DNA of 51,351 nt, taken from contig JANQND010000023.1 in assembly GCA_028279765.1 (NCBI GenBank), positions 1 to 51,351 of the forward strand, written 5' to 3'. The notes under the pieces were generated by a model. That model saw nothing but the letters and a program-made list of their open reading frames with translations, did not search any database and was not told the origin of the DNA. How positions within the stretch are numbered: the first letter of the stretch is position 1; each line of letters starts with the position of its first letter. This DNA comes from Candidatus Nanoarchaeia archaeon. Lineage in GTDB: Archaea; Nanobdellota; Nanobdellia; Woesearchaeales; WJIZ01. The position numbers and the translations under genes were made by a program. Positions 19,219 through 20,981 of this stretch are shown here, piece by piece.

Positions 19219-20046
19219 ATGCTTCAAAAGCTTTATTCTCTTCTGGGATCCTGGACTAAGGCACTTGATATTTTGTATGTGCATGAAGGGGTAAAGCCCT
19301 GCTGCAGAGTCCTTGATGTTGATGGACTGAGTGATATTCTCAAAGAGATGAAGTTGTCCTATGAGACCTCTGATTTTGGTGTGGAGATGCAAAAGAATGT
19401 CGGAGGATCTTATACCGATAAGGGAAAGAGTGTGAAGGAAGGCGGAAGAAGGGTTTTATACGTCTCTAAGGATGCGCAGAGTGCAAAGGAAGCAAAACAG
19501 GCAGAATCTGAGCAGAATCACAAGAGGCTTGGTTTGCTGCTTGGTTATCCTTGCTGCTGTGTTGAGTTTTTCCAGGAGCATGCTGAAAAAGAAGAAGAGT
19601 CAGACTTTGACCTTACCGTGAATGTTGCGGCGGCTTCGGTCGGCGTTAAGCACCCCTGGCACACCAATACCTGCCTTCGCGGGTTTGATGTGAACCTGTT
19701 ATCGCACTTTCCCTGCAGTTTTCAGTGTGAGCAAAGTAAAGAAATAGCAGAGAAGAACCTGGCGATTATCAAAAAGCATGAGTCTGATCTTGCTCAGTAT
19801 TTTGTGCACGCCCTGCAATGCGCCCTGATCTATGCACGGGGAGTGGGCGTGTATAGCTTTAAGCGAGCGGCTATGGACAGGAATATCATGGTGTATGATT
19901 CCCGACATTTGGTTTCAAGCTCAAAGAATAGTTTTCACGATCTGCTCATCAGGGAGAACAAAATAGCTCTTCTTGGGAAACAGCATTTTCTCGTAGGAAA
20001 AACAAAGGTGCAGGACGATCAGACCTTTTTTGCCTTGTTCTCATAG
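19219..20046 (+). CDS. DUF483-like cysteine-containing archaeal protein
   Basis: 275 residues. Two cysteine-rich blocks stand out, LGYPCCCVEFFQEH and SHFPCSFQCEQSKEIAEKN, with a conserved-looking WHTNTCLRGFD between them. This arrangement matches my recollection of the archaeal DUF483 family, whose function is unknown; the Cys and His residues suggest a metal or redox site. There is no signal peptide, so it is likely cytoplasmic. The ATG lies about 27 bases after CCATATAAAC, fitting a leaderless start. Its 3' end overlaps the convergent methyltransferase gene by 28 bases. The family assignment is from memory of the motif and moderately sure. Confidence 0.6.
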   Translation: MLQKLYSLLGSWTKALDILYVHEGVKPCCRVLDVDGLSDILKEMKLSYETSDFGVEMQKNVGGSYTDKGKSVKEGGRRVLYVSKDAQSAKEAKQAESEQNHKRLGLLLGYPCCCVEFFQEHAEKEEESDFDLTVNVAAASVGVKHPWHTNTCLRGFDVNLLSHFPCSFQCEQSKEIAEKNLAIIKKHESDLAQYFVHALQCALIYARGVGVYSFKRAAMDRNIMVYDSRHLVSSSKNSFHDLLIRENKIALLGKQHFLVGKTKVQDDQTFFALFS

Positions 20047-20555
20047 ACACAGACCGTAAAATGATTGGTCTCGAACTCGTCGACTTTCTTTAGGGTTTTA
20101 GGCTGAAAGATTGAGGAGTAAACCATTAACATCCCATTGAGTTCTTCTTTGAGCTTTTTTTCCAGCTTCAGGGAAAATGGCTGATCCGGCGCCATGTAGA
20201 GGAAGTCGTAATCAGTAAAGGAGACATCATAAAAATTCTTCTTGATGAAAGTGGTATTTTGTATTGAGAGCTTTTGCTTCATACTGTTTGAGATGTTGAA
20301 CAGGCTCTCATCCAGTTCGATTCCGTGAGCGTGCCTGAAGAAAAGTGAGGCAACCATGACCGCTATGCCATCACCTGAGCCTAAATCGAGAAAGACCTTT
20401 GATTTGTCTTCGTATTTTTTGTAGGCCTTGAAAATCTCTTTGGGAAGAGAGGGTGCCCAAATGCCATGATCCATGTATTTGATAAGGATAGGATTCTCTT
20501 TTAAGAATTCTTCATGATGTTTTTTGTAGGTTTCTTTTATTTTTTCGAATGACAT
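20019..20555 (-). CDS. Class I SAM-dependent methyltransferase
   Basis: 178 residues. Motif I is VFLDLGSGDGIAVMVA near residues 54-69, followed by HGIELDESLF (acidic SAM ribose contact) and DFLYMAPDQPF in the motif IV position. The small size and the helical N-terminal cap (YMDHGIWAPSLPKEIFKAYK) resemble a group of small archaeal methyltransferases whose substrate may be a protein or small molecule. The ATG at 20555 is preceded by GAATATAAAAG only 6-16 bases away, too close for a normal promoter spacing, so the promoter or the start is uncertain. The 3' end overlaps the DUF483-like gene. Confidence 0.78.
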   Translation of the reverse strand: MSFEKIKETYKKHHEEFLKENPILIKYMDHGIWAPSLPKEIFKAYKKYEDKSKVFLDLGSGDGIAVMVASLFFRHAHGIELDESLFNISNSMKQKLSIQNTTFIKKNFYDVSFTDYDFLYMAPDQPFSLKLEKKLKEELNGMLMVYSSIFQPKTLKKVDEFETNHFTVCVYENKAKKV

Positions 20556-20582
20556 TTTACTTTTATATTCGCGGTTTCAGTA

Positions 20583-20721
20583 GAAACAACAATAATGGTA
20601 GGCATCCTCAAAAATCAGAGATTTTTGGGACCCTGAAAATCTTTGATTTTCATGGAAACGATTTCGCTCTAGACAAAATTCATAGCTCTAAATCTTCGTC
20701 CATTCGCGCCATTGTTGTTTC
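20583..20721. repeat. Structured element: outer inverted repeat enclosing two tandem hairpins
   Basis: Outer arms are GAAACAACAATAATGG at 20583-20598 and CCATTGTTGTTTC at 20709-20721, complementary except for a three-base insert. Inside lie two perfect stem-loops: CAAAAATC/GATTTTTG (20609-20616 and 20620-20627, three-base loop) and TGAAAATC/GATTTTCA (20634-20641 and 20645-20652, three-base loop). The two hairpins resemble each other. It could be a small mobile element of MITE type, a non-coding RNA or a strong transcription barrier between divergent genes. The 60-codon frame across it is ignored, as it follows the repeats. Confidence 0.6.
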
Positions 20722-20780
20722 AGGTAGTTAATATTTCCACTTGAGTAACATTAAAAAAGCCTGCTGCATTCCCCTCTGTT

Positions 20781-20981
20781 ATGGCAAGCCGTCGTGAACT
20801 TATTTTATTATTGCTCCTGGTAGTTCTGTTTGCCGGGTTTTTTATGGCTGCGTTTTTGAATGCGCAGAGAGGAGTTGCGGTATTTGGCATTGGGTTTGAC
20901 CCTGTTGTTGAGGATTATGTGATCATGGCTCTCTCGTTTGCCTGCTTAATCCGAACCTTTGCTGCGATTGTGTCCCATTAG
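20781..20981 (+). CDS. Hypothetical small membrane protein with two helices
   Basis: 66 residues. The first hydrophobic segment, LILLLLLVVLFAGFFMAAFL, follows a basic N-terminus (MASRREL), and the second, VIMALSFACLIRTFAAI, ends near the C-terminus. No family is recognised. The stop overlaps the convergent 155-residue gene by four bases. The promoter is weak: no clear TATA box at the usual distance. It lies right after the structured repeat element, which may contribute to its expression. The frame is short but its charge and hydrophobicity pattern look protein-like. Confidence 0.5.
   Translation: MASRRELILLLLLVVLFAGFFMAAFLNAQRGVAVFGIGFDPVVEDYVIMALSFACLIRTFAAIVSH

Follow-up and report, generated by a model that had tools for sequence, protein, structure and literature searches.

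Integron attC sites are folded DNA with asymmetric arms and carry the boxes R'' (RYYYAAC) and R' (GTTRRRY), and the terminal repeats of parvoviruses are T-shaped, with an outer stem, two small hairpins and arms that serve as templates for one another during replication. The Rickettsia palindromic element is inserted in frame within protein genes. Prokaryotic MITEs are characterized in excerpts of PMC10969869 as short, non-coding, multi-copy and intergenic, with a possible stable stem-loop. The REP, BIME and REPIN palindromes have been linked to Y1 (RAYT) transposases (PMC3733652, in excerpt), and none of Woesearchaeota, DPANN and Nanoarchaeota is named in the excerpted main text of a REP survey (PMC12306157). 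attC sites and CALINs are also known in archaea (PMC9668308, in excerpt), and the double-hairpin and repetitive hairpin elements of mitochondria are described as dispersed, palindromic, intergenic and thought to be mobile (excerpts of PMC4478555 and PMC2800124).

Here we describe an element found in a stretch of 51,351 nt, referred to as the window, from a Candidatus Nanoarchaeia archaeon (contig JANQND010000023.1, assembly GCA_028279765.1). It belongs to a family of probably non-autonomous, non-coding, dispersed, MITE-like DNA palindromes, of a novel form and presumably recognised by their folded shape. No description of such a family was found among the open-licence PMC papers listed in literature searches.

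Layout of the window copy

The window copy, a long form of the element, covers 139 bp (20583-20721) and is oriented like the family model on the + strand, where the model matched 20578-20724 with 28.3 bits. An inverted-repeat listing gave 11-nt perfect inverted repeats as the outer stem, with the left arm GAAACAACAAT at 20583-20593 and the right arm ATTGTTGTTTC at 20711-20721. As read from the sequence, the left arm continues into a one-sided 3-nt bulge (20594-20596), an excess present in 78/80 aligned rows, and the stem then resumes with GGT-AG-GC on the left (20597-20603; GGC-AG-GC in the family) and GCGCC on the right (20706-20710). The pairs are G20597-C20710, G20598-C20709 and T20599.G20708, followed beyond the AG bulge (A20600-G20601) by G20602-C20707 and C20603-G20706. 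A first-pass annotation had proposed arms of 13-16 bases, and about that length is reached when the 11-bp perfect arms are taken together with the stem continuing past the bulges.

Inside the outer stem are two extra hairpins, the first and second halves of a double-hairpin module. As the annotation had stated, both have perfect 8-base stems (8/8 paired) and three-base loops: hairpin 1 occupies 20609-20627 (arms 20609-20616 and 20620-20627, loop AGA) and hairpin 2 occupies 20634-20652 (arms 20634-20641 and 20645-20652, loop TTT). The resemblance between the two that had been pointed out was borne out by a direct-repeat listing, and in an alternative fold they would pair together into one long hairpin. 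Comparison with short copies and the low model score suggest that 20656-20705 holds worn P2 and P3 junction hairpins, which are still intact in the short copies. The window copy is probably a worn, enlarged and older copy, one that would have gained the extra double-hairpin module and in which the original P2 and P3 have become worn. Its folding energy corresponded to z = -3.3 on the + strand and -4.67 on the - strand, with 0/200 shuffles as low on either strand.

The flanking ORFs are 20019-20555 (-), presumably methyltransferase-like from a motif, and the small 20781-20981 (+); a 60-aa ORF (20549-20731, +) traverses the copy. Given that the lengths of the aligned rows modulo 3 are 22/28/30 (n = 80) and that 35/80 rows have a stop in the frame of the 60-aa ORF, we do not take this ORF as coding, in keeping with the earlier view that no gene explains the element. 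A coding reading in which the arms give NNNNGR in one frame was rejected on the same two counts, the lengths not being multiples of three. A Rickettsia-type palindromic element was likewise rejected, on the basis of the row lengths and of places that lie mostly between ORFs.

A dispersed family built on a three-way junction

The annotation had raised the prospect of further copies, and searches of the full genome with blastn and a covariance model found them at about 45 places. In the genome of the window (G000; 1.5 Mb, 31 contigs, about 90% complete), blastn found 55 matching stretches, many of which were incomplete. The covariance model R1, built from 16 short copies, returned 58 rows at E values up to 10, corresponding to 45 places and 13 opposite-strand repeats. 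The 45 places are spread over 18/31 contigs in both orientations; three have E > 0.02, two of these three being backed by blastn, and a further place (C13:41426) came from blastn alone.

The short unit common to the family measures about 80 nt and folds into a three-way junction made up of an outer stem, one-sided bulges and two hairpins, with the bulges of the outer stem on the left side only. The left half of the short copies reads AACAACAAT-AAY-GGC-AG-GCxxx and is followed by a 2-nt joint, a P2 hairpin of the GATTTTGC..GCAAAATC type, a 1-nt joint, a P3 hairpin of the CGAGCTTAG AGA CTAAGCTCG type and the right half, xxxGC-GCC-ATTGTTGTT. Unit lengths range from about 80 to 190 nt. The double-hairpin module was matched, with at least its first hairpin, at 8 places in the own genome, one of them in the window. 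Hairpin 2 of the window also recurs in a different element type, at C14:74624, C20:20120 and C23:2644 (L017, L021, L020), so hairpin modules are common property of more than one element family and the elements have a mosaic build. The flanks of this other type are CCGAAGGTCATGGAAAGC..CTTTCCAGGA.

We also noted a second subfamily beside the main one, with the pattern ~TGAC-G-GCAGACGG..TCTGCGTCA, a CCGAAGG- or CCCCG-type loop and a length of 100-150 nt, whose members are L074, L077, L079, L092-L097 and L099 in the own genome together with L113, L114, L173 and others. Right-half remnants of another copy follow immediately after a complete copy in the right flanks of L060, L079 and L092, and at L124 two copies (1392-1499 and 1501-1582) are in inverted tandem.

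Covariation with few wobble pairs

Covariance was the other check named in the annotation, and it was seen in two alignments. In a plain MAFFT alignment of the 16 own copies, 17/30 predicted pairs were changed on both sides. In a model-fitted alignment of 80 rows, which leans towards its own structure, standard pairs accounted for 95.4% of 2539 cells and double changes were present in 33/33 pairs. Double-change cells numbered 516, compared to a shuffle mean of 125, and pairing fell to 35.8-58.0% when the partner was slid by one to three columns. The 80 rows include one opposite-strand duplicate (L151), which was dropped to leave 79 rows for the end, tag and box tests.

With compensatory changes at every pair, the usual test would announce the family as a new RNA. 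A structured-RNA family, be it of small RNA genes or of cis-acting leaders or terminators, with selection acting on the transcript, is favored by this very strong covariation, as well as by the conserved unpaired positions (A17, A23-G24 and A-g-A in the P3 loop) and by the strong folding of both strands. The stem mismatches, however, point elsewhere: once three end pairs were set aside, the remaining 2318 cells contained 19 G-T and 24 A-C, so that G-T was not the more frequent of the two, and the same held in all 2539 cells (24 G-T, 31 A-C), whereas 13 control tRNAs, taken from loci in the same genomes, had 34 G-U in 288 pairs, their zero A-C being partly due to the detection method of ARAGORN. 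Because selection for an RNA on one strand would tolerate G-U but not A-C, the equal counts argue against one RNA, and we conclude that pairing is maintained on DNA, or on both strands. The near absence of wobble pairs places the constraint there, making this a case in which covariation need not signal an RNA.

Consistent with this, the window matched no RNA family in Rfam at the gathering score, and an Rfam search of seven other loci at E-value 5 gave two sub-threshold matches (E 3.3 and 3.6), neither of which lay in an element. The wobble count and the Rfam result disfavor the RNA gene that the annotation had offered as one possibility, and we regard a structured RNA as an unlikely explanation of the family.

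Fixed bulges and exchanged arms

The irregular parts of the fold are nearly invariant. On the left, 78/80 rows have 4 unpaired nt in a run, compared to 1 nt on the right in 79/80; the second bulge (1-2 nt) is kept in 79/80 aligned rows, and the junction lengths are almost constant (2 nt in 71/80 and 1 nt in 71/80 rows). The arms vary. Some copies in the own genome have A/T-rich arms in place of CAACAACAA, and the five copies in a related genome, G005, have two unrelated arm pairs, each of which is self-complementary. The G005 cores share 98-102 identical positions of 113-115 across arm types, about the same level as in a pair of copies with common arms (102/113), and among the three copies bearing the second arm type, similarity ends at the arm ends.

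Two side observations concern the borders and stems of single copies. The G005 copies L080 and L086, which have the same arms, have CAAGCTGC.TGAT in common 20-35 nt upstream of the left arm, so the unit may extend past the arms there. L228 (G253 C3, ~155358) lies inside dispersed repeats shared piecewise with G359 and G408, and differs from L270 in one hairpin stem with the loop TTACGAAGTT kept.

Exchange of whole arms as matched pairs, as in G005, and stems that are Watson-Crick with rare intermediates could also be the product of template switching during replication alone, acting on selfish or neutral palindromes whose fold is not recognised by anything. A route of this kind to perfect stems has been published, with the principle shown for RNA genes (PMC8794818, in excerpt). 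Template switching should nevertheless erase the one-sided bulges, and their retention in nearly all rows indicates that it is insufficient by itself. The nearly fixed junction lengths also speak against it, and it offers no account of how the family came to occupy tens of places. As the whole account of the family, it is decidedly unlikely.

Gene context and orientation of the copies

Most copies are located between genes, whatever the strand of those genes. Using simple ORF rules, we counted 15 '<E<', 14 '<E>', 9 '>E>' and 7 '>E<' arrangements among 45 places, a count that includes the weak C2:88858 (E 6.6) and omits C7:16, at a contig end. Under a longest-start rule, 5/45 places overlap an ORF of at least 150 aa, each by more than 30 nt. 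Three of them do so where the ORF begins, C21:4792 runs through a 539-aa ORF, and the fifth is the weak C2:88858. This spread of contexts is without transcriptional logic. It disfavors the attenuator, another of the annotation's suggestions, and it weighs against structured RNA in general, as all four arrangements are present and 14/45 places are between divergent genes. If both strands were obliged to fold as RNA, equal G-T and A-C counts would also be expected, but the gene contexts offer this variant no transcriptional logic either. A riboswitch, attenuator or terminator fits the same 45 places poorly, as they have no fixed orientation to one flanking gene.

Judged by GC skew, the model strand in the own genome is on the G-rich strand in 33/40 copies, a set that omits C7:16, C24:32809, C8:62500, C8:63058, C2:88858 and the window copy. 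Adding four of the omitted places, two of them positive, gave positive skew in 35/44. GC skew also tracks gene strand, and the orientation effect persists at zero gene-strand bias (intercept t 6.5). Orientation agreed in 44/59 pairs of same-contig copies in the own genome (p about 0.002); for adjacent same-contig copies, agreement was 19/27 in the own genome (p 0.05) and 11/16 elsewhere (p 0.21). No skew bias was seen in other genomes, either with short flanks (G146 2/6, G021 9/16, G065 5/9, others 15/22) or with flanks of up to 5 kb (G021 7/23, G009 5/12, G111 3/7, G146 2/3), the genomes of the latter test having weak skew (mean absolute 0.036-0.081).

The own-genome bias, and its persistence at zero gene-strand bias, would suit a chromosome-maintenance site, that is, a cruciform to which a nucleoid or segregation protein binds and which is oriented with replication. 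However, the other genomes show no such bias, 125/145 genomes drawn from the order gave no match (E 1e-4, strict filters), and the nesting of hairpin modules, like the occurrence of nearly identical copies at separate places, has the look of mobile DNA, all of which makes a maintenance role very improbable. IS200/IS605 elements insert in a single-strand, fork-linked manner, and by analogy the orientation bias hints, without proving it, that the MITE-like palindromes that we favor might insert in this way as well.

Distribution and signs of movement

The family is patchy among genomes. With the own genome included in each count, carriers made up 4/7 genomes in the family (E 0.1), 20/145 drawn genomes in the order (E 1e-4) and 26/371 drawn genomes in the phylum (model R2, E 1e-5), where the order and phylum searches used stricter filters than the family search and lost weak matches. 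All 26 carriers from the phylum search belong to the same order, the share of the 371 drawn from other orders not being given. The best named match to the aspartate carbamoyltransferase encoded in the window comes, at 78% identity, from a Woesearchaeota genome, which makes Woesearchaeales the probable order. The top match counts in the order search were 27 (own genome) and 26 (G021). Patchiness of this kind is a further point against structured RNA. A pattern scan of genome contigs with both arm ends gave no match in a collection from which records of or near the genome of the window may be absent, and a scan of viral contigs gave 3 exact pattern matches, whose printed stretches, inspected by eye, were without such arms.

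An apparent empty site was found in G003, a genome of the same genus as G005 that had no model match at E 0.1. Both 1.5-kb flanks of one G005 copy align to a continuous G003 stretch, with 76 and 78% identity, and G003 is without a 195-nt stretch consisting of the element plus about 20-25 nt on each side. CTCTTTTT flanks the G005 insert on both sides and is single in G003, making it a candidate 8-nt duplication. Since the model match spans 149 nt and the insert 195 nt, the insert ends differ from the arm ends. This is a single intergenic case with inexact ends, part of which intergenic divergence could mimic. Two further attempts gave no two-sided synteny, and a third led to a repeat-rich stretch unreadable as an empty site. 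In G146, five copies at different places share a 91-nt unit, with only short likeness outside it; four are nearly letter-identical and one has a different P3.

The copy ends gave no strong signal in 79 copies except for more T. Each of the four positions just past the right arm has T as its most frequent letter, a feature that would fit a structured RNA. Adjacent direct repeats of at least 3 nt were present in 7/79 copies, against a random mean of 3.1 and maximum of 10. Separately, the three-way junction of the G146 copies L135-L137 is enclosed by a weak outer inverted repeat, TGGGCAGTATT / AATACTGCCCA, and their right flank TTTCTCTCCT also occurs in two G060 copies (L120 and L133).

We searched for an enzyme that might move the elements. 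The Y1 transposase family PF01797 had no match at E 0.001 in the own genome, about 90% complete. Tyrosine recombinases had three matches there, the nearest to a listed copy being C8:47665, over 14 kb away. Of the matches at C22:3503-3874 (G000), C27:820 and C8:47665, the first, of the phage-integrase type, has one in-frame TGA and the other two are without stops. No neighbor-gene family was found beside more than 3/128 loci, in a comparison that used a non-overlapping locus set with all pairs retained.

We infer a mobile element, to which the genome-wide Y1 search and the neighbors of the copies tied no transposase, and propose the following mode of movement. A recombinase or transposase acting in trans would recognise the folded single strand or an extruded cruciform, through its shape, bulges and junction rather than through end sequence. 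Spread would occur mainly at the replication fork, when single strands are exposed, and the arms could stay complementary by one being copied from the other, through self-primed or template-switch synthesis. A more specific form of this proposal, which we put forward tentatively and hold to be possible rather than probable, is a shape-only transposable element of archaea: a single strand folded into a T, its junction and its two one-sided bulges being fixed. It would be mobilised in trans at the replication fork, on one template strand, and would have mutually copied arms in which whole pairs can be replaced in one step without loss of function.

Comparison with known systems

Like MITEs, the family is short and non-coding, forms stem-loops and has many dispersed copies, mainly between genes. 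Unlike them, its terminal repeats are not conserved in sequence and are exchanged as matched pairs within a genome, no general target-site duplication was seen (7/79 copies, within the random range given above), it has a conserved three-way junction with one-sided bulges, and no parent insertion sequence was found in the genome-wide Y1 search or among the neighbors of 128 loci. MITE-like is the best of the annotation's three guesses (MITE-like element, RNA gene or attenuator) and is partly supported: the dispersed, patchy, mostly intergenic and non-coding copies and the one empty site in a relative agree with it, but with unconserved arms, and with no general target-site duplication seen in the 79 copies, the family is not an ordinary MITE.

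REP sequences resemble the family in being dispersed extragenic palindromes in which structure rather than coding matters and mobility is suspected. They differ in size and form, being palindromes of 20-40 nt compared to a three-way junction of 80-190 nt, and in their tie to Y1 transposases, for which no gene was found in the own genome (PF01797, E 0.001). REP tags were rare within 8 nt outside the left arm (GTAG in 2/79 and CGTC in 1/79 copies). The resemblance to attC sites is that of folded DNA with asymmetric arms, the shape kept and the sequence variable. Here, however, sites are on 18/31 contigs in either orientation rather than in one-direction cassette arrays, and the R-box pair (R'' RYYYAAC / R' GTTRRRY) was found in 0/79 copies.

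The mitochondrial elements are likewise dispersed, palindromic, hairpin-forming intergenic DNA, though of organelles rather than archaeal chromosomes, and the excerpted descriptions include no three-way junction with fixed bulges. The T-shaped DNA fold of parvovirus termini offers an analogy of mechanism only, as the present elements are interior chromosomal repeats with no Rep gene or nicking site identified. With its many copies, the family provides a data set on the way in which complementarity between the arms of DNA palindromes is preserved. It also offers a lead to an enzyme that mobilises such DNA in a group of archaea with few described mobile elements. Collectively, it fails the sequence-defined REP and attC tests, and the MITE tests in part, and it works like MITEs, REP sequences and the hairpin elements of mitochondria.
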